Source of the DNA: Bacteroidota bacterium
GTDB lineage: Bacteria; Bacteroidota; Bacteroidia; Chitinophagales; Saprospiraceae
Reading direction: 5' to 3'
NCBI GenBank assembly: GCA_020160935.1
Contig: JAIUPL010000010.1
Span: 124,001 to 188,000 of the forward strand
DNA: 64,000 bases
Shown here: positions 24,130-57,586 of the stretch, in pieces
How the letters are laid out: every line of letters begins with the position of its first letter
Numbering within the stretch: position 1 is the first letter of the stretch
Made by a program: the position numbers and the translations under genes
Notes under the pieces: model-generated
The model's database searches: none
Told to the model about the DNA's origin: nothing
Seen by the model: only the letters and a program-made list of their open reading frames with translations

Positions 24130-24241
24130 AAGCGGATTTTCACGGATTATACTGGATGATAAGGGAAATTTAAAACAATAAATAGCCCCTTATCACTCAG
24201 TATAATCCGTGAAAATCCGCATTTATCCGCGCAATCCGTGT
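24111..24241. repeat. Long inverted repeat between convergent genes (55-bp arms)
   Basis: Left arm 24111-24165 and right arm 24187-24241 are complementary except at about three positions; the loop is 21 bases. Core text is GCGGATTTTCACGGATTATACT. The left arm encodes the last residues of the upstream protein, and the right arm ends one base before the stop codon of the convergent YbhB-type gene. It could fold into a very stable hairpin acting as a terminator in both directions. Confidence 0.92.
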
Positions 24242-24242
24242 T

Positions 24243-24788
24243 TCAACGCTGATAATACGCCACTACCGAGGCCTTCGCCAGCATACTTGCATTCAGGTAA
24301 AAACCTACAAGTGCGGGGCTGGCATTGGCATCCAGGCCGAGTTTGTCGGTTTTCAGGGCGTACACGGTAATCAGGTACTGATGCGGTTTGTCACCTTCCG
24401 GCGGGCAGGGGCCGCCATATCCTGCTTTGCCGAAGTCGGTGATGCTCTGAATGGCGCCAGCAGGCAGCAGATTTTTGGCGGGATCGCCCGCGCCCTGTTT
24501 CAATTCGGAAGCGTTGGCAGGAAGATCGAACACTACCCAGTGCCAGAATCCGCTGCCGGTGGGCGCATCCTTGTCGTACATGGTGACAGCGAAACTTTTT
24601 GTACCCGCCGGCGCGTTTTGCCAACTCAGTTGAGGAGAAAGATTTTGCCCGGTGCAACCAAATCCGTTGAATACTTCCTTCAGGGTCATCTGACCACCGA
24701 GGTCATTGCTTTTGAGTGTGAATGTTTGGGCGAACAATGCACCGGAAACGAAGAGTACCGCTGCCATTGTGGCAAATACATTTTTCAT
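24243..24788 (-). CDS. YbhB/YbcL family (PEBP/Raf kinase inhibitor-like) exported protein
   Basis: A 181-residue protein, ATG 24788, with signal peptide (MAAVLFVSGALFAQ). The PEBP core is clear: FTLKSNDLGGQMTLKEVFNGFGC, NLSPQLSWQNAPAGTKSFAVTMYDKDAP, WHWVVFDLPA and GGPCPPEGDKPHQYLITVYAL, including the DPDAP-like and GPxPP/H blocks that form the anion pocket. Periplasmic ligand binding is expected; the ligand is unknown. It is divergent from the DinB gene. Confidence 0.92.
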   Translation of the reverse strand: MKNVFATMAAVLFVSGALFAQTFTLKSNDLGGQMTLKEVFNGFGCTGQNLSPQLSWQNAPAGTKSFAVTMYDKDAPTGSGFWHWVVFDLPANASELKQGAGDPAKNLLPAGAIQSITDFGKAGYGGPCPPEGDKPHQYLITVYALKTDKLGLDANASPALVGFYLNASMLAKASVVAYYQR

Positions 24789-27111: not shown

Positions 27112-27168
27112 GTGTTTTGGTGTTTTTGTGTTTTAGTGTTTTTGTGTTTTAGTGTTTTTGTGTTTTGG
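27112..27168. repeat. T-rich tandem repeat after the SulP gene (TGTTTTTGTGTTTTAG units)
   Basis: About three 16-base units directly follow the SulP stop. The same kind of text forms the arms of the palindrome at 53.2 kb (GTGTTTTCGTGTTTT), but here only one arm exists, so it cannot form a large hairpin. Confidence 0.75.
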
Positions 27169-27209
27169 AGGAATGAAGTATTATTGTAGGGACAAAACCA
27201 ACCCTTGCC

Positions 27210-27620
27210 ATGATACGCCAATTGTCCTCCCTTGCCCCGTTCTCTACGGACTGGGCTGTGTTGATTCTTCGAATCGTTTTTTGCGGCCTGCTCTTGTACA
27301 ACCACGCTTTTGTCAAATTTGCCCTGTTTCGCGACAGCCCCGACAGTTTTCCCGACCCGGTGGGTCTGGGCGCCACCGCAAGTTTTTACCTGGTGATGTT
27401 TGCGGAAATGTTGTGTGGCGCTTTGTGCCTGATTGGCTTGTTTACCCGTTTTGCCCTGATCCCGCTGCTCATCACCATGCTGGTAGCCTTGTTGCGCATC
27501 CATTGGGAAAATGAAATTACCGACAAGGAATTGCCGCTGCTTTACCTGGCTGTGTATGCCGCCATCTTTTTGATGGGGCCGGGCCGATATTCGCTGGATC
27601 ATCGGCTGAAGCGGGGGTAG
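27210..27620 (+). CDS. DoxX family membrane protein
   Basis: A 136-residue protein with four hydrophobic segments. It opens with the DoxX-type WAVLILRIVFCGLLLYNHAFVK, then SFYLVMFAEMLCGALCLIGL and a final LPLLYLAVYAAIFLMGPGRYSLD helix and tail. Function in this family ranges from quinone-linked redox roles to unknown. Its stop codon (TAG) directly abuts the first copy of the TTATTGG palindromic element. Confidence 0.9.
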   Translation: MIRQLSSLAPFSTDWAVLILRIVFCGLLLYNHAFVKFALFRDSPDSFPDPVGLGATASFYLVMFAEMLCGALCLIGLFTRFALIPLLITMLVALLRIHWENEITDKELPLLYLAVYAAIFLMGPGRYSLDHRLKRG

Positions 27621-27825
27621 TTATTAAGTTATTGGTTATTAAGTTATTGGTTATTAAGTTATTAGTTATTGGTTATTAAGTTATTAGGAGTTGGTTAGGG
27701 TTAAATTTTACATAAACTTGGCCACTCAAATAGTAAAGCCATGTATAAATGAAAACTAACCCTAACCAACTCCTAATAACTTAATAACCAATAACTAATA
27801 ACTTAATAACCAATAACTTAATAAC
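27619..27825. repeat. TTATTGG/TTATTAAG palindromic element, copy 1
   Basis: Tandem arms of TTATTAAG and TTATTGG units flank a core and are inverse complements of each other over ~66 bases; the left arm has one extra unit. The core (about 27703-27757) contains GGCCACTCAAATAGTAAAGCC. The element fills the whole gap between the convergent DoxX gene and the TPR-like gene. Confidence 0.92.
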
Positions 27826-27834
27826 GAAATAGCC

Positions 27835-29394
27835 CTACCTTTTTCCCCCCTCCGCCAGCCCGCTTTCCCTTTGCCGAATGACCTCCTGAATCGGGATGCC
27901 AGCGATTTTGCTTTCCAGCCAGGCAATGATGTCGAGATACATGAAGGAGCGGCTCTCGAAAGGGCTTTCCTGCAGTTTTTCCAGTTTTTCTTTCAGGATC
28001 ACGAATGCCGAGCGCAGGCGCGCCGGGCTGTTGAGTTGGAAGGCCTTGCGCAGGAAACGGAATATTTCCTCTTCCACCACGCTCAGGGTTTCCATTTGAG
28101 CCATGAAACGGTACACCGATTTGATGAGGTGTTCGAGGATGTCAAAATTGCCCAGTTCGTAATGTGCAATCAAGTGCAGGAGCCGGGCATAGCATTGCAA
28201 GTCGCTCCGCAGGTTGACTTTCCAGTGGATAATCCGGTTGAGGTATTCGATGGCTTTTTCTGCGTCGCTGGCGCCGAAATACAGGCTCGCAATTTTATAA
28301 TACAGCACGAGTGTGCGGTGGTGGTCGATCAGCAGGCTAAACTGCGTAAGTTTTTCCTCGATACCGGGTACCAGGTGCAGGCCTTCGGAAAAAGTGCCTT
28401 TCAAAAAATGACCGTTGATACGCGCAATAGCCAGATATACAAAGGTTTGTACACGCGTGTTGTCGTTGGCGTTGGATTCGTCGGTATTGGAAAATGCTTC
28501 AAAAAGCGCGAGCGTTTCATCGTACTTCCGGTGGTTGCGCAGCATAAAATGGGCCAACAAAAGATTGTGCAGCCCTTTGACATAAAACAGCGTTTCCACG
28601 CGGCACATATGCGGCTCATCACTGAACAGGTCGACCCATTTCTGTGCATACCGGTAATACATGCGGAAATCCTGCAAAATGAGCGCATGCCAGCAATAGG
28701 CCTGATACAGATAAAGACGGCCGAAAAAACCCTTCGTAAGGTGCGCATCGGGCGGCAGGCGAGAAGCAAAAAACTCGCGGATGGTGACAGCATCCTTGGC
28801 ATTGCGTGCATGGCCCACGTTGATGTACCAACTGTACAGTTGCAAAGACAGGTTGGACAAATTGCCCACCAGCGAGAGGCGTTCGTTCAGCGCATTGACT
28901 TCTACGGACAGGATTTCTGCGCGGTTCTGGATACTGCGGGTGATGTGCAGTTGCTCGATTTTCTTTTCAAATACCAGTGCCTGGTGCCAGAAAGTGGTTT
29001 GATGGTAGGTTTTGGCGCTGTCCTTGATACGTTGCAGCATCTTCAGGCTTTGCTGAAAAAGGCCCTTGTTGTACAAAATGCGGGCGTACTCCATCTGCTC
29101 GTGCAACTGAATTTCGATGTTGTTTTCGTCGCGCAGGGTACGCAAACTGGCCAGGATCTGGCGATAAAGACTGGCTTTCAGGTTGGGGATCTGTATTTTT
29201 TTCAGCGATTTCACCTTGCGCAGCAGCGCTTCCTCGTCGTACTCTTCCATTTTGTCGATGGCGTCGAACAGGGTAGTGGTTTTCAGGTCGACCGTAGCCT
29301 GGTTGCGCTTTACAAACAATTTGAAATTGCGCTTCTCCGCTTTTCCGAGCGACTTGATCAACTGAAACAATTCATCCGACGAGCGTTTGGCCAT
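27835..29394 (-). CDS. Large helical TPR-like protein (member 2)
   Basis: A 519-residue protein, start MAKRSSDELFQLIKSLGKAE. No named domain; predicted all-helical with TPR-like pairs (FQQSLKMLQRIKDSAKTY; DAEKAIEYLNRIIHWKVNL). The N-terminal KRNFKLFVKRN block recalls the FGKFLESPYF block of the members at 22.7 and 48.2 kb, suggesting distant kinship. It is the kind of protein common in Bacteroidota and probably a protein-interaction scaffold in the cytoplasm. Convergent with the DoxX gene; divergent from the glutathione peroxidase gene with a 123-base gap. Confidence 0.8.
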   Translation of the reverse strand: MAKRSSDELFQLIKSLGKAEKRNFKLFVKRNQATVDLKTTTLFDAIDKMEEYDEEALLRKVKSLKKIQIPNLKASLYRQILASLRTLRDENNIEIQLHEQMEYARILYNKGLFQQSLKMLQRIKDSAKTYHQTTFWHQALVFEKKIEQLHITRSIQNRAEILSVEVNALNERLSLVGNLSNLSLQLYSWYINVGHARNAKDAVTIREFFASRLPPDAHLTKGFFGRLYLYQAYCWHALILQDFRMYYRYAQKWVDLFSDEPHMCRVETLFYVKGLHNLLLAHFMLRNHRKYDETLALFEAFSNTDESNANDNTRVQTFVYLAIARINGHFLKGTFSEGLHLVPGIEEKLTQFSLLIDHHRTLVLYYKIASLYFGASDAEKAIEYLNRIIHWKVNLRSDLQCYARLLHLIAHYELGNFDILEHLIKSVYRFMAQMETLSVVEEEIFRFLRKAFQLNSPARLRSAFVILKEKLEKLQESPFESRSFMYLDIIAWLESKIAGIPIQEVIRQRESGLAEGGKR

Positions 29395-29517
29395 CGTGCT
29401 TTTTTTTGCAGCAAATCTCTAAAAAAGTACAGGGTGACCGAACATTGTGCCGAAAAAAACAACGCGGCCTTCAACATATTTCACAAATGCCGGTTATGGA
29501 GAAAACGACTCACACGT

Positions 29518-30129
29518 ATGAAAAAGAAATTTCTTCGCTTCCCCGGCATGCTTTCCTTTGTGATGGCCATTGTTCTCATGGCTTCTGCTTCCTGCGCCGG
29601 AAAAACACTTTCACGCCCATCCAATCAAAGTACTATGACGAGCGATTCCACCCGTACTTCCGTTTTCCAGTTTACTGTCAACAGCCTCGATGGCAAACCT
29701 GTTTCGCTGGAGCAGTACCGCGGCAAGTTTATTGTAGTGCTCAATGTGGCTTCCGAATGCGGCTACACACCTCAATACGCCGACTGGGAAAAATTTTATG
29801 AAGCCAACAAAGACCACGTCGTGGTCCTGGGCTTCCCCTGCAACGATTTTGGCGGTCAGGAGCCCGGATCGGCTACCGAAATCAGCAGTTTTTGCCAGAA
29901 AAACTACGGCGTTACCTTCCCCATGTTCGAAAAAGTGGCTGTTAAAGGTGCTTCGAAAGCGCCCTTGTACCAATGGCTGACCGATCCGGCCCAAAATGGC
30001 TGGAATACGCAGGAACCAACCTGGAATTTCTGCAAATACCTTATCAATGAAAAAGGCGAACTCGTCAATTTCTTCCCCTCGAAGGTAAAGCCGGATAATG
30101 TGGAGTTTTTGAAGGCTCTGGGAATGTAG
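29518..30129 (+). CDS. Exported glutathione peroxidase family protein
   Basis: A 203-residue protein, ATG 29518; the very long upstream frame is an antisense shadow of the TPR-like gene. The N-terminus is a signal peptide, possibly a lipoprotein (MASASC, Cys26). The peroxidatic Cys is in NVASECGYTPQY (Cys81), followed by GFPCNDFGGQEPG and WNFCKYLINEKGE with the conserved Trp. The catalytic Gln of NQFG is replaced by Asp (NDFG), a variant that is, to my knowledge, common in Bacteroidota. It should reduce peroxides in the periplasm using a thioredoxin-like donor. A TTATTGG palindrome follows. Confidence 0.92.
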   Translation: MKKKFLRFPGMLSFVMAIVLMASASCAGKTLSRPSNQSTMTSDSTRTSVFQFTVNSLDGKPVSLEQYRGKFIVVLNVASECGYTPQYADWEKFYEANKDHVVVLGFPCNDFGGQEPGSATEISSFCQKNYGVTFPMFEKVAVKGASKAPLYQWLTDPAQNGWNTQEPTWNFCKYLINEKGELVNFFPSKVKPDNVEFLKALGM

Positions 30130-30140
30130 GTTCGTTACTT

Positions 30141-30310
30141 AGTTATTAAGTTATTGGTTATTAAGTTATTAGGGGTGGGTAAGGGTTTGTTTGCATAAAG
30201 TCCTGGTTACACGACCAGTGAAGCCCAGAATTTGTGCAAACAAACCCTTACCCACCCCTAATAACTTAATAACCAATAACCAATAACCAATAACCAATAA
30301 CCAATAACTA
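30141..30310. repeat. TTATTGG palindromic element, copy 2
   Basis: Left arm ends GGGGTGGGTAAGGGTTTG, right arm mirrors it as CAAACCCTTACCCACCCC and continues into five AATAACC units. The core holds CACGACCAGTGAAGCCC. The right arm contains the DUF4407 stop codon. It separates convergent glutathione peroxidase and DUF4407 genes. Confidence 0.92.
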
Positions 30311-31390
30311 AAAACTAACCGCCACCCCCTTCTCCCGATCGATCGCGGCCTTTTCCATTTCAATTTGCGCTTCGGCGCGATAGGTGCCCACTTCCGTATC
30401 GATTTTCACCTTGTTTTGTACGCTGTTGCGCAGCAGCGAAGTTTTTTCGAGGTGTGCCATTTCATACACGTGTTCTTCCTGGTGCAGCACGTAGTCGTAG
30501 GGGCTGCGTGAAGAGATCAGTTTTACCAGAATAGGCGCCGTTTCTACCGCAATAAATAGCAAGGTGATAAACAGACTGGCATAAAAAATGGCCAGGCTAG
30601 TGTTGCTGAGTCTCGACAGCGCTTCTATGCGAGCGGCCAGGCCATCGTAGCGGCCGCGGTCGAGCGAAGAAATATCGCCCTGACTGGTGCTTTCCAGTTG
30701 TTGAATAGCCTGTTCTTTTTGTAAAATGGCCGGCCGATGCAGGGCAATGAGGGCGTCCAGTTCGGTTTGGGCATGGTCGGCTGCGGCTTTTTTGGTATGG
30801 TAAATCGGGCCGAGGTTCTTGTGGCGCGAACCGCCGGTACCGTCAGCCTCCTGAATGGCTGCAAGGGCGAGCGAATCACGTGCGGCTGTTTTCTGGGCAA
30901 TATCTGCCTTCAGCACATCTATCTGGCTGCGCAAATCGGCGATTTGTCCCGTGTATCTTTCCTTTACCTTGTCTTCCTGTTTTTTGAACACCTCCTGTTC
31001 CATCTGCACCAGTTCGGCGCGTATCTCCTTGTCGAATATCTTCAGTTCCAGCGGCTTGGAAATAACCACGGCCAGCAGCACAGCCATCACCATCCGCGGA
31101 AAGGCTACTAAAGCGTCGCGCCACCATTTGCCCCTGCTTTTCATACTCATCACGATGTATCGGTCGAGGTTGAAAATCATGAGGCCCCACACGAGCCCGA
31201 AGGCTACGGCCATTAAATAGGAGTCAAAAACGGTGTACAGCGCATAGCCGGACGAAAAGAATGCCAGCACCCCGGTAAAAAAAACGGTTGCGCCAATGCC
31301 CATGTATTTGTTGCGGTCGGTCGGGCATTTTTCCAGAATAGAGGCATCTGCCCCTGCGCAAAAGAGGAAAAAATCTGCAGTTGATTTCAT
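30308..31390 (-). CDS. DUF4407 family membrane protein
   Basis: A 360-residue protein, start at ATG 31390 (MKSTADFFLFCAGADASILEKC), the usual family N-terminus. Three N-terminal hydrophobic segments (YMGIGATVFFTGVLAFFSSG; MAVAFGLVWGLMIFNLDRY; LVAFPRMVMAVLLAVVIS) precede a long coiled coil (~125-240) and a last helix (FYASLFITLLFIAVETAPIL). The block FNLDRYIVMS is diagnostic. Function unknown. Its last three residues and stop (VSF) come from the arm of the palindromic element. It is divergent from leuA. Confidence 0.9.
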   Translation of the reverse strand: MKSTADFFLFCAGADASILEKCPTDRNKYMGIGATVFFTGVLAFFSSGYALYTVFDSYLMAVAFGLVWGLMIFNLDRYIVMSMKSRGKWWRDALVAFPRMVMAVLLAVVISKPLELKIFDKEIRAELVQMEQEVFKKQEDKVKERYTGQIADLRSQIDVLKADIAQKTAARDSLALAAIQEADGTGGSRHKNLGPIYHTKKAAADHAQTELDALIALHRPAILQKEQAIQQLESTSQGDISSLDRGRYDGLAARIEALSRLSNTSLAIFYASLFITLLFIAVETAPILVKLISSRSPYDYVLHQEEHVYEMAHLEKTSLLRNSVQNKVKIDTEVGTYRAEAQIEMEKAAIDREKGVAVSF

Positions 31391-31819
31391 AGTTCGAAGA
31401 AAACGGTACCGTTGTGCGACCTGCATCATTGGTACAGCCTGCCAAAGCAACTTGCTAACGATCAATTGCGGGAAAAATTTCGATAAACATGGTACTTGGT
31501 TAGACCGAATACCTGCTTTAACAAAAAACACTCGCCCAACGCACTGTCGAATCAATACAAAGGGGCACCGGAGCGGCGCCGGAAGGCAGAAATTTCAAGC
31601 CGGAAATATCACAAAATATGTTGGTCGGCCCGTTTTGGCGAGTGTAGAAATGAGGTGGTGTATGTGCTTGAAAATCAATTATTTGGACTGGGAAATTGTT
31701 TTATTGAAAAACGTATAAACGCCCACACTTTATCAAAAAAGTACGCAGTTGAAGATGCTACATTTACAGTCCGTACAAACACAAATGTTTTCATCTATCC
31801 AATTGGGCCAATAAAAATT
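31391..31819. other. Divergent intergenic region before leuA (429 bases)
   Basis: No convincing gene. TACATTTA at 31759-31766 matches the Bacteroidota -7 consensus in all but the last base and could start the leu-ilv transcript. I see no leader peptide with a run of Leu, Ile or Val codons and no T-box-like sequence. Confidence 0.5.
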
Positions 31820-32983
31820 ATGTCAAACAACAAAATACACATATTTGATACCACGCTAAGGGATGGCGAGCAAGTGCCTGGCTGCAAACTGAATACCAGT
31901 GAAAAAGTAGCCATTGCCTTGCAACTGGAAGCCCTGGGTGTGGACATCATCGAAGCGGGTTTTCCCATCTCTTCTCCCGGCGATTTCCAAAGTGTTCAGG
32001 AAATCTCACTGGCTGTAAAAGAGGTGTCGGTATGTGGACTGAGCCGCGCCGTTCAGAAAGACATCGAAACGGCAGCGGAAGCGCTGAAACATGCGCGCCG
32101 TCCGCGGATTCACACAGGCATCGGCACCTCCGATTACCACATCAAGGCTAAATTCAACTCTACAAGGGAAGACATCCTGCAACGCGCCATTCAATGCGTG
32201 AAGTGGGCGCGCAATTTCACCGACGAAGTGGAATTCTATGCCGAAGATGCCGGCCGTACCGACAACGAATACCTGGCACAGGTCATCGAGGCGGTGATCG
32301 CTGCCGGCGCGACGGTCGTCAACATTCCCGACACAACAGGATACTGCCTGCCGTATCAGTATGGCGAAAAAATCGCATTCCTTGTCAACAACGTGCCCAA
32401 TATCGACAAGGCTATCATTTCCTGCCATTGCCACAACGACCTGGGGCTGGCCACTGCCAATTCCATAGCAGGTGTCATCGCCGGCGCGCGCCAGATCGAG
32501 TGTACCATCAACGGCCTCGGCGAACGTGCCGGCAATACTTCCCTGGAAGAAGTAGTAATGATCATTCGGCAGCACGGACACCTCGGTTTTCACACCGATG
32601 TGAAAGCGCCCATGCTCAATCCGATCAGCCGCCTGGTGTCGGACACCATGCGGATGCCCGTGCAACCCAACAAGGCCATTGTCGGCAGCAATGCGTTTTC
32701 GCACTCCTCGGGCATCCACCAGGACGGATTCCTGAAAGACGCACAGACCTATGAAATCATCGCGCCGGAAGAAGTTGGCGCCGATACCTCTAAAATCATC
32801 CTGACCGCCCGCAGCGGTCGCTCGGCGCTGGCTTATCGTTTCCGCAAACTCGGCTACGATTTCAACCGCGACGAAGTGGACAAACTATACGAACAATTCC
32901 TGCAGGTAGCCGACGAGAAAAAGGAAGTGCAGGACGAAGACCTGAAGGCTATGGCGGTGGCTATGGCGGGCGTGGAAATGTGA
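31820..32983 (+). CDS. leuA: 2-isopropylmalate synthase (short form)
   Basis: A 387-residue enzyme joining acetyl-CoA and 2-ketoisovalerate, the first leucine-specific step. I start at ATG 31820 ([20 protein letters not shown]); the longer frame upstream has no family match. The catalytic barrel is complete: [30 protein letters not shown], the HCHNDLG metal motif and [14 protein letters not shown]. The C-terminal LeuA regulatory dimer domain of the ~520-residue form is missing, so classical leucine feedback through that domain is not expected. It opens the ten-gene branched-chain run; a TTATTGG palindrome separates it from leuC. Confidence 0.95.
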
Positions 32984-32988
32984 ACGTA

Positions 32989-33133
32989 GTTATTAAGTTA
33001 TTGGTTATTAAGTTATTAGGGGTGGTAAGGGTTAGTTTTCATGTATACATGGCTTTACTGTTTGAGTGGCCAAGTTTATGTCAAATTTAACCCTTACCAA
33101 CTCCTAATAACTTAATAACCAATAACCAATAAC
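32989..33133. repeat. TTATTGG palindromic element, copy 3 (leuA-leuC junction)
   Basis: Arms of TTATTAAG/TTATTGG and GGGGTGGTAAGGGTT mirrored on the right. The core (about 33034-33090) is the reverse complement of the core of copy 1 almost base for base, so the core is inverted relative to it. Confidence 0.92.
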
Positions 33134-33146
33134 AAAAAAAAGCAAC

Positions 33147-34547
33147 ATGACTCTATTCGATAAAATATGGAACCGACATGTCGTCAAACAAATAGAAGGC
33201 GGGCCCTCCGTTTTCTATATTGACCGGCATTTTATTCATGAAGTAACCAGTCCACAGGCTTTTGACGGCCTGCGCAAACGCGGTATTGGACTGGCACGGC
33301 CGGCACAAACCATTGCCACGGCCGACCACAACGTGCCTACCTGGGATCAGCACCTGCCGATCAAGGAAGCGCTGTCGCGCATGCAGGTGGAAAAACTCAC
33401 CGAAAACTGCAAGGAATTCGGTGTAGAACTCTACGGACTCGGGCACTCTTACCAGGGCATTGTACACGTCATCGGGCCCGAACTGGGCATCACCCAGCCC
33501 GGCATGACCATTGTATGTGGCGATAGCCATACCAGTACGCACGGCGCCTTCGGTGCTATTGCATTTGGTATCGGCACCAGCGAGGTGGAAATGGTGTTCG
33601 CCACCCAATGCCTCATGCAGAACAAGCCGAAACAGATGCGCATCAACATCGAAGGTACGCTGCAGGAAGGGGTGACTTCCAAAGACATCATTCTGTACAT
33701 CATCGCACAGATTTCGGCAGGCGGCGCGACCGGCTATTTCGTGGAGTACGCTGGATCGGCCATTCGCAGCCTGTCGATGGAAGCGCGCATGACCATTTGT
33801 AATATGAGTATTGAAATGGGTGCGCGGGGCGGTTTGATCGCTCCGGATGACACGACTTTCGAGTACATGAAAGGCCGAAAATTTGCCCCTCAAGGCGCAG
33901 ATTGGGATCAAAAAGTGGCCGAATGGCGGCAATTACATTCAGAAGCCGATGCCGTTTTCGACCATGAAATTCATATCCGCGCGGAAGACATTCAGCCGAT
34001 GGTGACCTATGGCACCAATCCAGGCATGGGCATTCCTGTTACAGGCTCTATTCCCGAAGAAACGGTGCTGGAAGAAAAGGAACGCCCTTCTTTCCGCAAG
34101 GCGCTCGATTACATGGGCTTGCAGGCAGGAAAAGCCATCAAAGGCCAGAAAATCGACTATGTTTTTATTGGCAGTTGCACCAATTCACGGATCGAAGACC
34201 TGCGTCAGGTGGCGCAGTTTGTAAAAGGCCGCCAGAAAGCCGATGGGGTGGAAGTGTGGATCGTTCCCGGCAGCAAACAGGTGGAAGCACAGGCACGTGA
34301 AGAAGGCCTGCACCACATCTTTGAGGCCGCCGGATTCCAACTCCGCCAACCTGGCTGCTCGGCCTGTCTCGGTATGAACGAAGACAAAATTCCGGCCGGC
34401 AAATACTGCATTTCTACTTCCAACCGAAATTTCGAAGGACGACAGGGGCAAGGCGCACGCACCTTGCTCGCCAGTCCGCTCACCGCCGCTGCCGCCGCTA
34501 TTACCGGGGTGGTGACCGATGTGCGCGACATGCTGACGGCTAACTGA
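33147..34547 (+). CDS. leuC: 3-isopropylmalate dehydratase, large subunit
   Basis: A 466-residue aconitase-family subunit. Substrate and cluster motifs are present: [27 protein letters not shown] and [11 protein letters not shown], giving the three Cys ligands of the [4Fe-4S] cluster. With LeuD it isomerises 2- to 3-isopropylmalate in the cytoplasm. Length is normal for the bacterial form. leuD follows after 49 bases. Confidence 0.97.
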
Positions 34548-34596
34548 TCCGAACAAACCACCACTACCAGATCACTTCTTTAACGACCTGATTATC

Positions 34597-35181
34597 ATGA
34601 CTATACATAGCACTGCCGTTCCGCTGGAAAATGAAAATGTGGATACCGACCAGATCATTCCGGCCCGCTTTTTAAAAGCGACGAGCCGGGACGGATTCGG
34701 GAAAAACCTGTTTCGCGACTGGCGCTACAACGACGACGACGAGGCCCGGCCCAAAACGGATTTTGTATTAAATAGCCCCGTTTTTAGTGGCAAAATACTG
34801 GTGGCAGGCAAAAATTTCGGTTGTGGCAGCAGCCGCGAACACGCTGCCTGGGCACTCAAGGACTACGGCTTCGACGTCGTAGTGAGCAGTTTTTTTGCCG
34901 ATATTTTTAAAAACAATGCGCTCAACAACTTCCTGCTGCCAGTGCAGGTGAATGATGATTTTGTGCAAAATCTGTTCGATACCATCCAGCAGAACCCCGC
35001 CGCTGAAATCGATATTCAACTGGAAAACCAGACCATTACCAATGTGTCGACCGGCGAACAAGCCCATTTCGACATCAATGCTTACAAAAAAACATGCTTC
35101 ATCAACGGATACGACGATATTGATTATTTGCTGAGTATTCGGGAGGAGATTGAGACATACGAACAAGTTATTGGTTATTAG
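34597..35181 (+). CDS. leuD: 3-isopropylmalate dehydratase, small subunit
   Basis: A 194-residue swivelling-domain subunit. Motifs [35 protein letters not shown] and [13 protein letters not shown] define the family. It pairs with LeuC from the preceding gene. The last residues and stop (VIGY, then TAG) are read from the first bases of the TTATTGG palindrome that separates leuD from leuB, so the C-terminal tail is repeat-derived. Confidence 0.97.
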
Positions 35182-35310
35182 TTATTGGTTATTAGGGGTG
35201 AATAAGGGTTTGTTTTCTCCCAATTATCGCCACTCGATCAGTAAAGCCAAGTATTGATGAAAATAAACCCTTACCCACCCCTAATAACTTAATAACCAAT
35301 AACCAGTAAC
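35166..35310. repeat. TTATTGG palindromic element, copy 4 (leuD-leuB junction)
   Basis: Left arm overlaps the last five codons of leuD. Arms carry TTATTGG units and GGGGTGAATAAGGGTTTG, mirrored as CCCTTACCCACCCC on the right. Core text is CGCCACTCGATCAGTAAAGCC. The element ends 5 bases before the leuB start. Confidence 0.92.
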
Positions 35311-35315
35311 TAAAA

Positions 35316-36443
35316 ATGAAAGACATGAATAAAAAAATCACAGTCATCGAAGGCGATGGAATTGGCCCGGAAGTAACCGCACAGGCCGTAAAAGTGCTGA
35401 ATGCAGTGGGTACACGTTTTGGCCACACCTTCGAATATGAATACGCCCTGATGGGCGCTTGTGCCATCGACCAGACCGGCAATCCGCTGCCCGACGAAAC
35501 CATCGAAGCCTGCCTGAAAGGCGACGCCATCCTGTTTGGTGCGATCGGGCACCCGAAATACGACAACGACCCCACGGCAAAAGTGCGGCCCGAACAAGGC
35601 CTGCTGAAACTGCGCAAAACGCTGGGACTGTACGCCAATATTCGCCCGATCAGCACCTATCCGGCGCTCCAGCACTTGTCGCCGCTAAAGGCCGAACGCC
35701 TGGAGAATGTGGATTTTGTGATTTACCGCGAACTCACGGGCGGCATTTATTTCGGTAAAAAGACGGTAGATGAAGCCGCGACGACTGCTTCCGACGACTG
35801 CGTGTACACCCGCGCAGAAATTGAACGTATTGCCCACCCGGCATTTCAACATGCACAAAAACGCCGCAAGAAACTAACGCTGGTAGACAAAGCCAATGTG
35901 CTGGAAACCAGTCGTTTGTGGAGAAAAATTGTGCAGGAAATTGCCACACAATACCCGGATGTAGCCGTCGATTTTCTTTTTGTCGACAATGCTGCCATGC
36001 AAATTATCCTGAACCCGGCACAGTTCGACGTGGTGCTCACAGAAAATATGTTTGGCGACATCATCAGCGACGAGGCTTCGGTCATCAGCGGATCGCTGGG
36101 GCTGCTGCCATCGGCGAGTATCGGCCAAAGCGGTGGCCTGTTCGAACCCATCCACGGTTCGTATCCACAGGCGGCGGGCAAGGATATTGCCAATCCGCTG
36201 GGCTCTATCCTCAGTGCAGCCATGCTGCTCGATTACCTCAACCTCCAGGCCGAAGCGAAAGCCGTGCGTGACGCCGTCAACTGGTCGCTGGCAGAGGGCC
36301 TGGTAACGCAGGACCTCGACCCGAAAAATTTCCAGTACACCTCCCAACTGGGTGACCTGATCAGCGCCCGCGTGGAAGACGAAGTGCCGCCTTCTCCCGG
36401 AAAACGCAGAAACCGCTTGTTGTCGACCCTGACAATCATTTAA
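35316..36443 (+). CDS. leuB: 3-isopropylmalate dehydrogenase
   Basis: A 375-residue NAD-dependent oxidative decarboxylase of the isocitrate/isopropylmalate family. It shows [62 protein letters not shown] and [22 protein letters not shown]. It makes 2-ketoisocaproate for IlvE, whose gene is 26 bases downstream. A second in-frame ATG three codons in (MNKKITV) is an equally possible start. The C-terminal tail ([18 protein letters not shown]) is somewhat longer than usual. Confidence 0.97.
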
Positions 36444-36469
36444 TGTAAATTATTGAAGAGTAATTTGAT

Positions 36470-37369
36470 ATGGCGAAGTATTTTCATGAAAATACCATTC
36501 TGTATTTCGATGGGCAGATGCTGAAAGCCACCGAAGCGCACACCAACCTGTACGGGCAAACCCTGCACTATGGCTACGGCGTTTTTGAAGGCATTCGCAG
36601 TTACAAGACCGAAAATGGCGCACGCATTTTCAAGGCGCGTGAGCATTACGAACGCCTGATTCATTCCTGCCAATTGCTGGGCATTCCATTCGAGTACACG
36701 GTAGAGGAAATGACGGAAATCAGTTACAAGGTGCTGGAAGCCAATGATTTCAGCGATGCCTATCTGCGCCCGCTGGTCATCTGCGACCCCAGCATGACAC
36801 TTATCAACGGCCAGCCGAGCAAACTCCTGATTGCTGCCTGGGAATGGGGCGCCTACCTGGGCGAAAAACTCCTGAACCTCAAAATTAGTCCGTATTGCCG
36901 CCCGCACCCGCGCTCGGTACACATGGAAGCCAAAGCTGTGGGGCACTATGTCAATTCCATTCTGGCTACTTCAGATGCCCGGAAATCGGGTTACGACGAG
37001 GCTTTGTTGCTCGACTGCGACGGAAATCTGGCGGAAGGCCCCGGCGCCAACCTGTTTTTTGAAAAAGACGGTGTGCTGTACACTCCTTCACTCGGCCACA
37101 TCCTGCCGGGTATCACCCGCGCTACCGTATTGGAAATGTGCGCCGAACTCGACATTCCGGTTGAACAAGGCCATTTCACAGCAGAAGACCTGTTTGAAGC
37201 AGACAGCGCTTTCTTTTGTGGCACCGGCGCCGAAATCATCGGCATTCAAAAAGTAGATCATTACCATTTTCCCAAGGACTGGGCCAGCACCATCGGACAT
37301 CAACTCCGGGCCAAATACCTGCAACTAGTACGCGAACAAACCACACAACCTGCAAGCATAGAAGCATGA
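36470..37369 (+). CDS. ilvE: Branched-chain amino-acid aminotransferase
   Basis: A 299-residue fold-type IV PLP enzyme. [17 protein letters not shown] near the start, the catalytic Lys in [13 protein letters not shown] (~155) and [21 protein letters not shown] are typical. It transaminates the keto acids of Leu, Ile and Val. Its stop overlaps the ilvD start by 4 bases (ATGA), implying coupled translation. Confidence 0.97.
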
Positions 37370-39045
37370 GCATTTTGAATAAATACAGCCGTACCCTCAC
37401 ACAGGACCCTACACAGCCTGCTGCGCAGGCCATGCTATATGGCATTGGGCTGACGGAGGCCGACCTCGAAAAGGCGCAGGTGGGCATCGTGAGTATGGGC
37501 TACGACGGCAATACCTGCAATATGCACCTCAACGACCTGGCACGGACGGTGAAAGCCGGCGTGTGGGACAATGAACTGGTAGGACTGATTTTCAACACTA
37601 TCGGCGTCAGCGACGGCATGAGCAACGGCACCGATGGTATGCGTTTTTCGCTGGTGAGTCGCGATATTATTGCCGACAGCATCGAGGCTGTTTGTGGCGC
37701 GCAGTACTACGATGGACTGATTGCTGTGCCGGGCTGCGATAAAAATATGCCCGGCTCGGTGATGGCCATGGGGCGTCTCAATCGCCCTGCTATCATGGTC
37801 TACGGCGGCACCATCGCTCCGGGGCAATGGAAAGGGCAGGATTTGAATATCGTTTCCGCATTTGAAGCCCTGGGGCAAAAGATCGCCGGTACCCTCGACG
37901 AAGGCGATTTTAAGGGTATTGTGAAGCACTCCTGCCCGGGCCCGGGCGCCTGCGGCGGCATGTATACGGCCAATACCATGGCCTCGGCTATCGAAGCGCT
38001 GGGTATGTCGCTGCCCTATTCTTCGTCCAATCCGGCGCTGAGCGAGGAAAAACAAAAAGAATGCACCGATGCAGGGCGCTATATCCGCCTGCTGCTGGAA
38101 AAAGACATCAAGCCTTCCGACATCATGACGGAAAAGGCTTTTGAAAATGCGATTACCGTGGTGACCGTGCTGGGCGGCTCTACCAATGCCGTACTTCACC
38201 TGATTGCCATCGCCAAAAGTGTGGGTTTGTCCCTCAAACAGGACGATTTTCAGGAAATCGGCGACCGCACCGCTTTACTGGCCGACCTCAAACCTTCCGG
38301 CAAATACCTCATGGAAGACCTGCACCGCATCGGCGGCGTACCGGCTGTGATGAAGTATTTGCTGAAAAAAGGCATGCTGCACGGCGATTGCCTCACCGTG
38401 ACCGGCCGGACATTGGCTGAAAACCTGGAGAATGTTCCTGATCTCGACTTCGACACCCAACACATTATTCATCCGCTGGAATCGCCCATCAAAGCCACCG
38501 GTCACCTGCAAATCCTGTACGGCAACCTGGCCGAACTGGGCAGCGTCGCCAAAATCACCGGCAAGGAAGGCGAACGTTTCGAAGGCCCTGCGCGGGTATT
38601 CGACGGCGAACAGGCCCTGATTGCGGGTATTCAGAGCGGCCGCGTTCGTGCGGGCGACGTGGTGGTCATTCGATATGTTGGCCCGAAAGGCGCACCGGGT
38701 ATGCCCGAAATGCTCAAACCTACGTCGGCGCTTATCGGCGCGGGCCTCGGCAAAAGTGTGGCGCTCATCACCGATGGCCGATTCAGCGGCGGCACCCACG
38801 GATTTGTAGTGGGCCATATCACCCCCGAAGCATCGGAAGGCGGCTTGCTGGCGCTGGTACACGACGAGGACATCATCGAACTGGATGCTGTGCATCGCAC
38901 TATCCAATTGAAAGTCGACGATGCAGAAATAGAACGCCGCCGCGCACAATGGCAAACACCGCCACCGGCCGCTACCAAAGGCGTTTTGTACAAATACCTG
39001 AAATCCGTCAGTAATGCAGCCGAAGGCTGCGTAACCGACGAATAA
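37366..39045 (+). CDS. ilvD: Dihydroxy-acid dehydratase
   Basis: A 559-residue iron-sulfur enzyme, start at ATG 37366 ([20 protein letters not shown]). Cluster Cys residues appear in [19 protein letters not shown] and [40 protein letters not shown] marks the C-terminal domain. It dehydrates the dihydroxy acids in Val and Ile synthesis. Start overlaps ilvE; ilvB follows after 42 bases. Confidence 0.97.
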
Positions 39046-39087
39046 ACCTGAATACATGCTTTTACCTCACTCATAAATCACCACATT

Positions 39088-40836
39088 ATGACAGCCACAC
39101 CATCCACGCCCGAAGCAGGAGTCCAATTGTTGGAAACACCTGTTCTCCCACAAATCACCGGCTCGCAGGCCGTACTTGAAGCATTTCTGGCCGAGGGGGT
39201 CGATACCGTCTTCGGGTATCCGGGTGGCGCTATCATGCCGATTTATGATGCCTTGTACGATTATGGCGAGCAAATTCACCATATTCTGGTGCGGCATGAA
39301 CAAGGTGGAATCCACGCAGCGCAGGGTTACGCCCGCGCTTCCGGCAGGGTAGGGGTGGTGTTTGCCACCAGCGGTCCCGGCGCGACCAATCTGGTGACCG
39401 GACTGGCCGACGCCCTGATCGACAGCACGCCAGTGGTGTGTATCACCGGGCAGGTATTTGCCCATTTGCTGGGCACCGATGCTTTTCAGGAAACGGATGT
39501 GATCAACATTACCACGCCCGTGACCAAATGGAACTGTCAGGTGACCGATGCAGCCGAAATTCCGGCAGCGCTGGCCAAGGCTTTTTACATTGCCGGCAGC
39601 GGGCGTCCGGGCCCTGTTTTGGTCGACATTACCAAGAATGCCCAAATGCAAAAGTTTGATTACGAAGGATATACGCGTTGTGACCATATCCGGAGTTATC
39701 GCCCGCGTCCGTTCATTCGCAAGGAATATGTAGAAGAAGCCGCGCAGTTGATCAACGCTGCGGAGCGGCCTTTTGTGCTCTTCGGACAGGGTGTTATCCT
39801 GGGTAAAGCCGAACAGGAATTCCGCGCATTTATAGAAAAAAGCGGCATTCCGGCTGCCTGGACGCTGCTCGGACTGGGCGCCTTACCCACCGATCACCCT
39901 TTGAATGTAGGTATGTTGGGCATGCATGGCAATTACGGCCCGAACGTGCTTACCAACCAGTGCGATGTGCTCATTGCCATAGGTATGCGCTTCGACGACC
40001 GGGTGACGGGCCGCCTCGACCGTTATGCCAAACAGGCCAAGGTCATCCACCTGGATATCGACCCCGCAGAAATCGATAAAAATGTAAAAGCCGAGGTACC
40101 CGTCTGGGGCGATTGCAAAGAAACCTTGCCGCTCCTAACACAACTCGTCGCGCAAAAACAATACCCGGAATGGCTCCAGCAATTCCGCGACCACGCTGCC
40201 AAAGAACAGGAAGTGGTTATTCAGAAAGAATTGCACCCCACGGGCGACATTCTCTCGATGGGCGAAGTGATTCGTGTAATCAATGAACTCACCCATGGCG
40301 AATCGGTCATCGTGACGGATGTGGGTCAGCACCAGATGGTCGCCACACGTTATGCCCGTTTCAACAAAACCCGCAGCAATATTACTTCAGGTGGCCTGGG
40401 CACCATGGGTTTTGCCCTGCCTGCCGCTATCGGCGCGAAATATGGTGCTCCCGATCGCACAGTTATTGCCATTGCCGGCGATGGCGGTATTCAGATGACG
40501 ATTCAGGAACTGGGCACGATTCAGCAGTTTGGCGCCGAGGTGAAAATTATCATCCTCAACAACCAGTTTTTGGGAATGGTGCGTCAGTGGCAACAACTGT
40601 TTCACGACCGCCGCTATTCGTTCGTCAATATCACCAGCCCCGATTTTGTAAAAGTGGCCGAAGGTTACGGCATTCCCGGCCAGAAAGTCACCCAGCGCGA
40701 ACAACTTCAATCGGCCCTCCAGGCCATGCTCGATCACAAAGGCTCTTTTCTGCTGGAAATCATGGTTGGCAAGGAAAACAATGTGTTCCCGATGGTGCCG
40801 CAGGGGTGTGGGGTGGCGGAGATAAGACTGGAATAG
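39088..40836 (+). CDS. ilvB: Acetolactate synthase, large (catalytic) subunit
   Basis: A 582-residue thiamine-diphosphate enzyme. The catalytic Glu lies in LVRHEQGGIHAAQGYARAS; FGYPGGAIMPIYDALYD and GDGGIQMTIQEL...NNQFLGMVRQWQ (diphosphate site) are intact. It condenses pyruvate or 2-ketobutyrate in the first common step. The regulatory subunit gene ilvN lies 626 bases away, separated by a palindromic element and an antisense gene. The stop TAG runs directly into that element. Confidence 0.97.
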   Translation: MTATPSTPEAGVQLLETPVLPQITGSQAVLEAFLAEGVDTVFGYPGGAIMPIYDALYDYGEQIHHILVRHEQGGIHAAQGYARASGRVGVVFATSGPGATNLVTGLADALIDSTPVVCITGQVFAHLLGTDAFQETDVINITTPVTKWNCQVTDAAEIPAALAKAFYIAGSGRPGPVLVDITKNAQMQKFDYEGYTRCDHIRSYRPRPFIRKEYVEEAAQLINAAERPFVLFGQGVILGKAEQEFRAFIEKSGIPAAWTLLGLGALPTDHPLNVGMLGMHGNYGPNVLTNQCDVLIAIGMRFDDRVTGRLDRYAKQAKVIHLDIDPAEIDKNVKAEVPVWGDCKETLPLLTQLVAQKQYPEWLQQFRDHAAKEQEVVIQKELHPTGDILSMGEVIRVINELTHGESVIVTDVGQHQMVATRYARFNKTRSNITSGGLGTMGFALPAAIGAKYGAPDRTVIAIAGDGGIQMTIQELGTIQQFGAEVKIIILNNQFLGMVRQWQQLFHDRRYSFVNITSPDFVKVAEGYGIPGQKVTQREQLQSALQAMLDHKGSFLLEIMVGKENNVFPMVPQGCGVAEIRLE

Positions 40837-40982
40837 TTATTAAGTTATTGGTTATTAAGTTATTAGGGGTGGGTAAGGGTTTATTTTTACCTATGTTTGG
40901 CTTCACTGGCTGAGTGGCGAAGAATTTATCAAAACCAACCCTTACCCACCTTAATAACTTAATAACCAATAACTTAATAACT
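40836..40982. repeat. TTATTGG palindromic element, copy 5 (after ilvB)
   Basis: Starts at the last base of the ilvB stop codon. Arms have TTATTGG/TTATTAAG units and GGGGTGGGTAAGGGTT, mirrored on the right. The core reads CTTCACTGGCTGAGTGGCG, i.e. inverted relative to copies 1, 2, 4 and 6. It ends 15 bases from the stop of the antisense four-helix-bundle gene. Confidence 0.92.
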
Positions 40983-40997
40983 CAAAAATCAATTACC

Positions 40998-41372
40998 CTA
41001 CTTCTTGGCCTGTCTGGAAAGATAAGCAATGTATCCGTTCAGTAATTTAATACAGTTGTCGATTTGTTCTTTAAATGATTTTAGTTGTTCTGAAGAGATG
41101 TAGGTTTCATCATAAGCCGTAACAAGGTGCTCCAGCGTTTCCTGAATAGATCCCCTTGCCATTCTGCAAAACTGAGCATTTTCCTTGTGATGAAAACGTC
41201 CGTAACCTTCGGCAATACAGGCAGTAATGCGTCTGGACGAACGAACAATTTGGTCAGTAAGCCTAAATCGCTCCTCTGAAGGGAAAAAATCCTTGACCAG
41301 TATTGCAATTCGCTTCCGCAGCAAGCGGCATTCCTTGTAGGATTCCAGTTGTGTAAATGATCGAATTTCCAT
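40998..41372 (-). CDS. S23-type four-helix-bundle protein
   Basis: A 124-residue protein (start ATG 41372, MEIRSFTQLESYKECR; an ATG four codons upstream is also possible). RLTDQIVRSSRRITACIAEGYGR and the closing QLKSFKEQIDNCIKLLNGYI mark the 23S-rRNA intervening-sequence (S23) family, related to the avd proteins of diversity-generating retroelements. Here no rRNA or reverse transcriptase is nearby. It sits antisense inside the ilvB-ilvN gap, between a complete TTATTGG palindrome and a lone arm of the same repeat. Function unknown; known relatives form pentameric basic barrels that bind nucleic acid. Confidence 0.88.
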   Translation of the reverse strand: MEIRSFTQLESYKECRLLRKRIAILVKDFFPSEERFRLTDQIVRSSRRITACIAEGYGRFHHKENAQFCRMARGSIQETLEHLVTAYDETYISSEQLKSFKEQIDNCIKLLNGYIAYLSRQAKK

Positions 41373-41426
41373 AAATGAAAGCATTATTAAAAGCCCAAAA
41401 ATATTAAAAATGCCAAGTGTAATCAC

Positions 41427-41459
41427 CCCTGATAACCAATAACCAATAACGAATAACAA
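41427..41459. repeat. Lone right arm of the TTATTGG element before ilvN
   Basis: TCACCCCTGATAACCAATAA and further AATAAC units match the right arm of the palindromes but have no partner arm or core in front. It ends 4 bases before the ilvN start codon. Confidence 0.75.
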
Positions 41460-41462
41460 AAA

Positions 41463-42050
41463 ATGAAAAGGGAATACACCATCACCGTCTACACCGAAAA
41501 TCAGGTGGGCTTGCTTAATCGGATCGCCATCATTTTTTCCCGGCGCAAGATCAATATCGACAGCCTCAATACCTCGCCCAGCGAAGTGGAAGGTATCCAC
41601 CGTTTTACCATTGTGATGGATGAAACGGAAGATGTAGTGCGCAAACTCACCCGCCAGATCGAAAAGCAGGTGGATGTGTTGCGTGCATTTTACAACAGTG
41701 AGGAAGAAATTGTGTGGCAGGAAATGGCGCTGTACAAGGTGCCAACCGACGAAATTGCCGAAAAAGTGAAAGTAGAACGGCTCCTGCGCGAACACGGCGC
41801 CCGGGCAGTGGTGATCCGCAAAGACTATACGGTGTTTGAAACCACCGGCCACCGCGAAGAAACGAGCAACCTGATTCGGGTGCTCGAGCCCTACGGCCTC
41901 ATCGAATTTGTGCGCAGCGCCCGCGTGGCCATCATCAAAGGCAGCAACGGATTCCATGAAATGCTCAAAGACTTCGAACGCCGCGAACCAGGCGAAGACA
42001 CCTTTGAAAACGAATACCTCAACGAAAAGGAACGGGTATTTGCAATGTGA
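41463..42050 (+). CDS. ilvN: Acetolactate synthase, small (regulatory) subunit
   Basis: A 195-residue ACT-domain protein. YTITVYTENQVGLLNRIAII and SRRKINIDSLNTSPSEVEGI form the Val-binding ACT domain; the second half (AVVIRKDYTVFETTGHREET) is the C-terminal domain of the longer small subunits. It binds and regulates IlvB, giving valine feedback. ilvC follows after 66 bases. Confidence 0.95.
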   Translation: MKREYTITVYTENQVGLLNRIAIIFSRRKINIDSLNTSPSEVEGIHRFTIVMDETEDVVRKLTRQIEKQVDVLRAFYNSEEEIVWQEMALYKVPTDEIAEKVKVERLLREHGARAVVIRKDYTVFETTGHREETSNLIRVLEPYGLIEFVRSARVAIIKGSNGFHEMLKDFERREPGEDTFENEYLNEKERVFAM

Positions 42051-42116
42051 TACTGGCTCTGGGAAACCCGGCTGATTTTTTCAAAACGAATTAAAAACTC
42101 AACAATTTCAATAAAA

Positions 42117-43181
42117 ATGGCACAACTCAACTTTGGCGGCACGCTTGAAAATGTCGTCACCCGCGAAGAATTTCCCCTTGAAAAAGCGCAGGCCATCCTG
42201 AAGGATGAAGTCGTAGCCGTCATCGGATATGGCGTACAGGGCCCCGGTCAGGCGCTCAACCAACGCGAAAATGGCATCAACGTGATCGTCGGCCAGCGCA
42301 AAAACTCCAAATCATGGGACAAAGCCGTGGCCGATGGCTTCGTACCCGGCGAATCCTTGTTCGACATTGAAGAAGCGCTCGAACGTGGCACCATCATCTG
42401 CTACCTGCTTAGCGATGCTGCCCAGATTCAGATGTGGCCCACCGTCAAAAAACACCTGACACCCGGCAAAGCCCTGTATTTCTCCCACGGATTCGGTATT
42501 ACCTACAACGATCAGACGGGTATTGTTCCGCCTGCCGACGTAGACGTGTTCCTCGTAGCCCCCAAAGGTTCGGGTACTTCCCTGCGCCGTATGTTCCTGC
42601 AAGGCCGTGGCCTCAACAGCAGTTATGCCATTCACCAGGATGCTACCGGCCGCGCGTTCGATCGCGTGATCGCGCTGGGTATCGCTATCGGCAGTGGCTA
42701 CCTGTTTGAAACGAATTTCAAAAAAGAAGTGTACAGCGACCTGACCGGCGAACGCGGCACGCTCATGGGCGCTATTCAGGGCATTTTCGCAGCACAGTAC
42801 GCCGTACTGCGCGAGCGCGGCCACTCGCCCAGCGAGGCTTTCAACGAAACAGTGGAAGAGCTCACTCAATCGCTGATGCCCCTGGTGGCTGAAAACGGTA
42901 TGGACTGGATGTATGCCAACTGCTCTACCACGGCTCAACGCGGCGCACTGGACTGGTGGAAAAAATTCCGCGATGCCACCCTGCCCGTGTTCAACGAACT
43001 CTACGATAGTGTAGCCACCGGAAAAGAAGCGGCTCGCTCCATTTCCTCCAACAGCCAGCCCGACTACCGCGTCAAACTGGAAGAAGAACTGAAAGAACTC
43101 CGCGAAAGCGAAATGTGGCAAGCCGGCCAAACCGTACGCAGCCTGCGTCCGGAGAATCAGCCGGTGGCGGAGGAAGCGTAA
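42117..43181 (+). CDS. ilvC: Ketol-acid reductoisomerase
   Basis: A 354-residue class I enzyme. VAVIGYGVQGPGQALNQREN is the nucleotide-binding loop; VGQRKNSKSWDKA, with Ser and Lys in the specificity loop, suggests NADPH use. The catalytic Asp/Glu metal sites lie in DLTGERGTLMGAIQG and following helices. It converts acetolactate to the dihydroxy acid used by IlvD. A TTATTGG palindrome follows the stop. Confidence 0.97.
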   Translation: MAQLNFGGTLENVVTREEFPLEKAQAILKDEVVAVIGYGVQGPGQALNQRENGINVIVGQRKNSKSWDKAVADGFVPGESLFDIEEALERGTIICYLLSDAAQIQMWPTVKKHLTPGKALYFSHGFGITYNDQTGIVPPADVDVFLVAPKGSGTSLRRMFLQGRGLNSSYAIHQDATGRAFDRVIALGIAIGSGYLFETNFKKEVYSDLTGERGTLMGAIQGIFAAQYAVLRERGHSPSEAFNETVEELTQSLMPLVAENGMDWMYANCSTTAQRGALDWWKKFRDATLPVFNELYDSVATGKEAARSISSNSQPDYRVKLEEELKELRESEMWQAGQTVRSLRPENQPVAEEA

Positions 43182-43189
43182 CTTTGATG

Positions 43190-43334
43190 TTATTGGTTAT
43201 TGGTTATTGGTTATTAGGGGCGGGTAAGGGTTTGTTTTCATAAATTCTTTGCTACTCAGCCAGTGAAACCAGGCATTTGTGAAAATATACCCTTACCCAC
43301 CCCTAATAACCAATAACCAATAACTAATAACCAA
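43190..43334. repeat. TTATTGG palindromic element, copy 6 (ilvC-ilvA junction)
   Basis: Arms of TTATTGG units plus GGGGCGGGTAAGGGTTTG, mirrored as CCCTTACCCACCCC. Core text GCTACTCAGCCAGTGAAACC. It ends 9 bases before the ilvA ATG. Confidence 0.92.
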
Positions 43335-56001: not shown

Positions 56002-56114
56002 GATGGTAGTATGGACTTTAGTCCGTCGGGACAGCGCCTTTTAAGGCGCAAAAAAAACTATATAAAGCGCCTTAAAAGGCGCTGTCCCGACGGACTAAAG
56101 TCCATACTACCATC
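56002..56114. repeat. Perfect inverted repeat, 48-bp arms
   Basis: Arms 56002-56049 and 56067-56114 are complementary with no mismatch; the 17-base loop is A/T only. Text includes GACTTTAGTCCGTCGGGAC and AGCGCCTTTTAAGGCGC, the latter itself a palindrome. It lies just downstream of the GH5 stop codon and upstream of the esterase gene. Confidence 0.96.
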
Positions 56115-57143: not shown

Positions 57144-57586
57144 AACAGAGGAGGGTAAAGGTGGAAAGATAAGAGTACCCGGGGAAATCCCTGATGCAAA
57201 AGAATCAAAAGTATGTGGGGCGTAGCGGGGGGAATTTGGACAGAAAGGCGGGGTTATTTTGTTAAACAGAGCGCGTAGAGTAGTTTCATGCAGACCGCGT
57301 AGAGTAATTTTCCGCAGATCGCGCAGATTTAACCGCAGAACTCGCAGAATGTAGAGTACACCTATTCCCTCAAAGCGATAACAAATGAGTACTCTACGTT
57401 ATGTACTCTACATTCTGCGAGTTCTGCGGTTAAATCTGCGCGATCTGCGGGAAATTACTCTACGGAAAATCTCATGTTCATGTCGTTAAACAACCCTGGT
57501 GTTTTTTTTCAGCAACTAACCACCATGCTTTTAGCAGGGGCCCGTAATTTCGCCCACACTTACCACCACCGAATAAAATCCTCGCC
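57144..57586. other. Divergent intergenic region (443 bases) holding a long inverted repeat
   Basis: Contains the palindrome at 57298-57464 and short repeated GCGTAGAGTA pieces before it. No gene is credible here. Confidence 0.7.
57298..57464. repeat. Inverted repeat with 61-bp arms (GCAGATCGCGCAG type)
   Basis: Left arm to 57359 and right arm from 57403 are complementary over 61-62 bases with one mismatch. Text includes CGCAGATCGCGCAGATTTAA and AACTCGCAGAATGTAGAG. The 43-base loop carries a further ACTCTAC copy. It lies between divergent GH5 and homogentisate dioxygenase genes, so it is not a simple 3'-end terminator. Confidence 0.94.

Follow-up and report, generated by a model that had tools for sequence, protein, structure and literature searches.

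Dispersed hairpins linked to heptads are reportedly already known from other bacteria: the SDR elements that Elhai is said to have described in Nostoc in 2008 are hairpins of 21-27 nt in heptameric tandem repeats, with compensatory changes, some of them nested. We analyzed a family of dispersed palindromes with heptad arms in the genome of a Saprospiraceae bacterium (Bacteroidota; assembly GCA_020160935.1). The family is represented in a stretch of 64,000 nucleotides (contig JAIUPL010000010.1, positions 124,001 to 188,000), hereafter the window, in which we confirmed the six complete inverted-repeat copies and one lone right arm reported by a first-pass annotation, at 27620-43331. The Nostoc SDR reportedly share with these copies small hairpins in heptad repeats and compensatory changes; here, however, the heptads themselves form inverted, mirrored arms to either side, and the host belongs to another phylum; the two are set apart by description only.

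Three other systems invite comparison. One report (PMC4679880) describes direct repeats of the heptamer TAACTGA in Beggiatoaceae, Cyanobacteria and five Bacteroidetes; intergenic heptamers and a patchy spread are the likeness to our copies, whereas the TAACTGA repeats are direct and, in the main genome treated there, mostly near start codons, while the copies here are inverted around a core and often lie at stops. REPINs (REP doublets) are, according to PMC3116915, short dispersed intergenic hairpin repeats that are variable inside and carry compensatory changes; the copies here likewise join two inverted halves in a single hairpin and show such changes. Unlike REPINs, the copies do not flank the Y1 genes of the genome, have no GTAG in their consensus, carry heptad arms of varying number, abut stop codons in many cases and have a median length of 145 bp. 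The third system, the correction of quasipalindromes by template switching, shows the same arm homogenization and double changes (PMC8604942 and PMC8794818); it is a mutation process and not an element family, and its targets in this genome would be numerous scattered copies. In the open-licence literature, we found no paper on such elements in Saprospiraceae or other Bacteroidetes, and no precedent for mirrored heptad arms, stop-codon fit and genome-specific interiors at shared junctions appeared there.

We read the copies, as the best explanation, as DNA palindromes dispersed between genes and not as genes for RNA. Each can form a long hairpin, its two arms resemble each other far more than they resemble the arms of other copies, and the interiors resemble one another within a genome but differ from those of a close relative, even at junctions where both genomes have a palindrome. 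The copies of the window are the following.

27620..27825, minus strand: copy 1, with GTTATTAAG/GTTATTGG arm units and a GGAGTTGGTTAGGGTT block; core on the minus strand
30134..30308, minus strand: copy 2, its best palindromic part at 30150-30280, with additional CCAATAAC units at the right
32989..33133, plus strand: copy 3, with 92% complementarity to copy 1 over 118 nt
35167..35310, minus strand: copy 4, at the leuD-leuB junction; the leuD frame stops within the left arm
40836..40981, plus strand: copy 5, downstream of ilvB and upstream of a small reverse-strand gene
41424..41457, no strand assigned: lone right arm, the edge of a CACCCC block plus CCAATAAC-type units, without a left arm, immediately before ilvN
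43189..43331, minus strand: copy 6, at the ilvC-ilvA junction

The unit CCAATAAC occurs 27 times in the window, compared to 2.6 expected, a number that none of 100 shuffles reached. The genome (G000) comprises 5.84 Mb in 51 contigs and is 97.9% complete. The genome-wide search that the first-pass annotation had proposed turned up further copies: a covariance model found at least 79 distinct sites of the GTTATT-arm family at E<=0.01, a lower bound, as 150 of 2354 candidates, on both strands, were scored. For the other counts we surveyed 983,686 bases (984 kb) of this genome, partly chosen around copies and overlapping in places. The 73 GTTATT rows that were parsed include one false nested parse, and 72 copies remain once it is removed; core orientation, mismatches and target duplication were counted on the 73 rows, and placement and the final interior similarity on the 72 copies. 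Copy 5 was read by eye and left unparsed by the script, and thus stands outside the context and similarity counts.

From outside to inside, a copy consists of tandem GTTATTGG, GTTATTAG or GTTATTAAG units, a G-rich GGGGTNGGTAAGGGTT block, a stem and an apex; the median full length of 145 bp was obtained by script. An alignment of 49 copies (54 rows minus four chance rows gave 50 extracted, and L048:3005 was omitted) has a variable stem of about 15-20 bp between block and core, with compensating changes, and a loop closed by TGGC...GCCA. The first-pass annotation had described a conserved core between variable arms, which needs one correction: the core is only partly conserved, with the consensus TTTGGCTTCnCTGnTTGTGTGGCCAA, and conservation is highest in the heptads and in the GGTAAGGG block. 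Pairing is kept despite the differences between arms, with 95.2% of cells paired and changes on both sides at 19 of 27 pairs. Cells changed on both sides number 150, compared to 41 in shuffles (0 of 500 as high) and to 10-24 when the partner is slid, although the pairing structure was derived from the same alignment and the slide control is therefore biased toward it. Copy 2, folded as single-stranded DNA, reaches -58.2 kcal/mol (z = -16.3).

In the 64 copies with a palindrome score of at least 30, to which the mismatch count was confined, the arms are 93% Watson-Crick, and the mismatches are 79 GT, 76 AC and 110 other. Alignment columns 12-90 hold 20 U-A, 16 G-C, 9 A-U, 4 other and zero G-U; U-A and G-C alternate at several pairs with few or no G-U cells, suggesting that one arm is copied from the other, rather than that pairing is selected in RNA. 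Compared over 28 nt in the 72 copies, the left arm agrees with its own right arm at 0.90 and with the right arms of other copies at 0.61, and in 49 of them no foreign right arm surpasses its own. The spacers form 159 same-orientation and 163 inverted pairs, a result in which spacer inversion is indistinguishable from random orientation of insertion.

The pattern GGTTATTAN{46,76}TAATAACC matches nine of 41 genomes of the genus: the close relative G213 has at least 68 matches per strand among the matches listed, with some sites counted twice, and the other eight genomes have one or two each. The own genome is one of these eight and has one match, presumably since the gap permitted by the pattern is too short for its interiors. 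G213 shares the heptads, and its stem is commonly GTGTGGTAACCCTTGGC. Of 41 G213 palindromes that were compared, 12 had both gene flanks matched in the own sequence surveyed, at 11 own junctions, since two G213 contigs match the same one (an earlier, looser flank pass gave 14 sites). A GTTATT palindrome lies at the own junction at each of these 12 sites, compared to about one expected, a figure that we estimated by taking 72 own copies over ~3,300 junctions, the latter extrapolated from the 148 counted in 264 kb. The interiors of the same-junction pairs agree at 0.460, no better than mismatched pairs, which agree at 0.464; 4163 of 5000 permutations reached the same-junction value (an earlier estimate from five pairs was 0.469). 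At the same junctions, the agreement is 0.680 between own interiors and other own copies, and 0.655 between G213 interiors and other G213 copies. The general values are similar: a median of 0.685 among own copies (mean of 0.688 on different contigs) and of 0.657 within the relative, compared to 0.461 between the genomes. Own pairs less than 20 kb apart (n=36) are more alike, at 0.770 versus 0.688 for pairs on separate contigs, a result that none of 5000 permutations reached.

Around leuC-leuD-leuB, other relatives have a palindrome of another family or none; the ends of leuD differ among them, and in G204 the leuD-leuB spacer is 18 nt by eye, without a palindrome. In 199 genomes of the family, a core pattern (one N too long) had 11 of its 13 matches in other genomes, without hairpin arms around them, and is thus of little value for judging spread; the covariance model, run with strict filters over 120 family genomes, gave beyond the own genome one weak match, an GGGTTGAT/GGGTTTAT array. 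Palindromes with a score of at least 18 number 40 in 196 kb of unselected own sequence and 0 in 260 kb of shuffled own sequence; the same-genus counts are 8 in 69 kb (G213), 3 and 6 in 120 kb each (G205 and G207), 0 in 50 kb (G220) and 1 in 108 kb (G250). The proposal that the element is mobile or templated fits the many dispersed copies, arms mirrored copy by copy, and interiors specific to each of two genomes.

With a probability of roughly 0.55, we favor DNA palindromes in which the arms are mirrored by template switching and the interiors are homogenized by recombination between copies. A replication fork that meets a palindrome would allow the polymerase to switch template and copy one arm from the other, so that arm changes, including the gain and loss of heptads, would become mirrored. 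Recombination between copies with common heptad arms would homogenize the interiors genome-wide, with breaks at the extruded hairpin as a possible trigger. Arms would lengthen until coding sequence is reached, and the position of copies directly at stop codons would follow from this. Two published studies report that template switching homogenizes arms and inverts spacers (PMC8604942) and produces compensatory changes in hairpins (PMC8794818). The greater likeness of neighboring copies suggests that local copying is probably part of the seeding of new junctions.

Placement is consistent with such lengthening in this family. The 72 copies lie between tandem genes (36), convergent genes (25) and divergent genes (10), with one at an edge; for comparison, 30 of 148 background junctions are convergent. 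Of the tandem copies, 28 of 36 begin no more than 8 nt after the upstream stop, compared to 11.3 expected under uniform placement in the same spacer, and in the convergent group seven of 25 exactly fill the space from one TAG stop to another. TAG accounts for 46 of 70 abutting stops and for 185 of 718 stops generally. In other palindrome families of the genome, a stop lies within 10 nt in 20 of 24 AGTCCTG copies, in 0 of 11 CGCAGAT copies and in 0 of 6 ACGAAGG copies; stop-codon abutment is therefore not general across families. Genes were placed by a simple caller of our own, which missed at least one gene of the window. That gene, upstream of copy 2 and presumably glutathione-peroxidase-like, caused the junction to be scored as tandem; copy 2 itself precedes a reverse-strand gene. 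The neighbors of copy 1 are presumably a DoxX-like gene and a TPR-like gene, and copy 3 separates what we take to be leuA and leuC.

Several points weigh against this explanation. Every event in it is reconstructed, none having been caught in the act, and independent insertions at favored junctions could also give the turnover of interiors, because arm units are partly genome-specific (GTTATTAA occurs 76 times in own arms and does not appear in the tally of arm units for the relative). The first parse was inconsistent, with heptads left in some interiors, and put the 12 pairs at 0.508, above cross-genome means of 0.41-0.51. The presence of a palindrome at all 12 matched junctions is conditional on own sequence that was partly selected for palindromes, and 29 of the 41 G213 sites had no two-flank match. 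In sense orientation, GT mismatches slightly exceed AC (44 vs 36). The break-repair step gains no direct support: G220 and G250, which have no SbcD match, are almost free of palindromes (0 in 50 kb and 1 in 108 kb).

The same two genomes led us to reject the loss of Mre11-Rad50 as the cause; it is at most permissive. Of the 41 genomes of the genus, 38 match the SbcD model TIGR00619, five of these above the cut-off; the own genome, G220 and G250 have no match. The SbcD/Mre11-like protein of G213, which matches the Mre11 and SbcD models below their cut-offs, found nothing in the own genome when used as a query, in a run without a positive control. The SbcC model TIGR00618 matches all 41 genomes, but the own genome, G220, G250 and G215 weakly, over ~51-55 positions; judged from these matches, a Rad50-like gene seems to be absent from the own genome.

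Among the alternatives, miniature transposons mobilized in trans, either REPIN-like and dependent on a Y1 transposase or MITEs of a DDE insertion sequence, with the hairpin as substrate and each genome swept by its own master copy, survive best, and we regard them as possible but doubtful. The copies are dispersed, the families are genome-specific, junctions of relatives such as the 18-nt spacer of G204 have no palindrome, and REPINs too have compensatory changes (PMC3116915). However, the arms are tandem heptads of varying number, and many families coexist. A target duplication of 3-9 nt was found in 0 of 73 rows, and one of 2 nt in 18, compared to 15.7 in shuffles, with ends blurred by heptads. 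A TA duplication was rejected as well: of 73 rows, 35 have TA before the left end and 29 before the right end, with both in 16 compared to ~14 expected if independent, and we read TA at copy ends as stop codons and partial heptads. REPIN/RAYT systems have a GTAG or CGTC tag at the hairpin foot (PMC3733652); neither tag is present in the 49-copy consensus, a statement at consensus level only.

The first-pass annotation had also called for a test for a REP-type (RAYT) transposase, and a RAYT-driven origin was rejected: within the 1-1.5 kb read, both Y1_Tnp loci of the genome sit beside other palindromes, neither of the two genes has copies of this family at its flanks (no search for DDE transposases was made), and the nearest GTTATT palindrome seen is ~6 kb from one Y1 gene (L127:3499). 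The contrast drawn with REPs and MITEs holds in part, for the target duplication and the unflanked Y1 genes, and with the same limit for DDE transposases, whereas the compensated hairpin is REPIN-like. As a separate observation, one palindrome type that flanks a Y1 gene, TTGGCGAGGACGCCAA, has two representatives in the window, one at 22509 and a slightly different one at 63818. The GTTGGCGAGGACGCCAAC-type palindromes at 22509-22579 and 63818-63892 resemble those flanking the Y1 gene C29:2332 (L071), with which they likely form an ordinary RAYT/REP pair. The genome also has four reverse-transcriptase (RVT_1) loci (C17:183677, C29:123656, C20:31493 and C51:372686).

Selected RNA or DNA hairpins at gene 3' ends, with pairing kept by selection for mRNA protection, transcription ending or protein binding, would account for copies that abut stop codons and for the convergent excess, but we consider them improbable. 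Preference for G-U and for a strand is missing, several copies lie within the leu-ilv gene run, and the same junctions in relatives have other palindromes or none. A terminator scan, limited to loops of 3-8, placed 0 of 32 consensus sites on the six copies, so that, within that limit, the earlier claim that they are unlike terminators stands. A structured RNA, also suggested by the first-pass annotation, is unlikely, because GT mismatches are about as common as AC and the core faces either way (16 with the gene direction, 17 against, 4 undecided in tandem copies); Rfam gave 0 matches at gathering score within the window, and the RNA family was dropped as a candidate. Least probable, and very much so, is growth in place by heptad slippage and template switching at gene junctions with no spread between sites: lone heptad arrays do exist (27112-27175 and 41424-41457) and one architecture is common to several families with different heptads, but a block, stem and apex common to dozens of sites require copying between sites.

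The family is one of many in this genome. At a score of at least 20, the surveyed bases hold 221 distinct palindromes: 73 with GTTATT arms, 112 in 13 other arm classes and 36 unclassified, with classes assigned by text pattern and runs of N, earlier counted as "other", dropped from the total. The other classes are AGTCCTG (24), GTTATGA (13), GTTGATR (13), CGCAGAT (11), GTGAGAG (10), GTGTTTT (8), GGGCAAA (8), CGGATT (7), GGTTGAG (7), ACGAAGG (6) and three small ones. Modules are common to families, as GTAGAGTA is in both arms of AGTCCTG (16), CGCAGAT (10) and GTGAGAG (3) palindromes, and the nested palindrome at L127:3499-3718 has an outer GTTATT shell, an inner GGTTGAG shell and a CCACTC core. 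Two members of other families in the window are the following.

24106..24246, no strand assigned: other-family palindrome with CACGGATT arms
57298..57464, no strand assigned: other-family palindrome with CGCAGAT arms, inner module GTAGAGTA and a similar architecture

A GTTATT palindrome at L033:1213-1399 has an unusually long loop, perhaps an apex insertion. A family of long palindromes free of heptads (TATGGACTTTAGTCCGTCGGGACAGCGCC and variants) was seen in the window at 56002-56114 and at L134:8731-8885 and L131:8306-8454. Lone heptad or octad arrays (GTGTTTT, CTCTCACT and ACACCAAA) at 27112-27175, near 17372 and near 53440 have no obvious inverted partner and are possible precursors or remnants of palindromes.

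Strong covariation commonly passes as proof that an RNA is functional. In these copies it comes without G-U bias or strand preference, which makes the genome a ready test of DNA template switching that imitates RNA selection, and a natural system for the survival and spread of long palindromes in a bacterial chromosome. We further propose, tentatively and with well under even odds, an enzyme-free class of palindromes in which heptad arms would serve as recombination homology, template switching would mirror the arms, and a new interior could take over at most of a genome's sites, with the sites themselves fixed; if this is true, palindrome interiors would evolve in concert across a bacterial chromosome.

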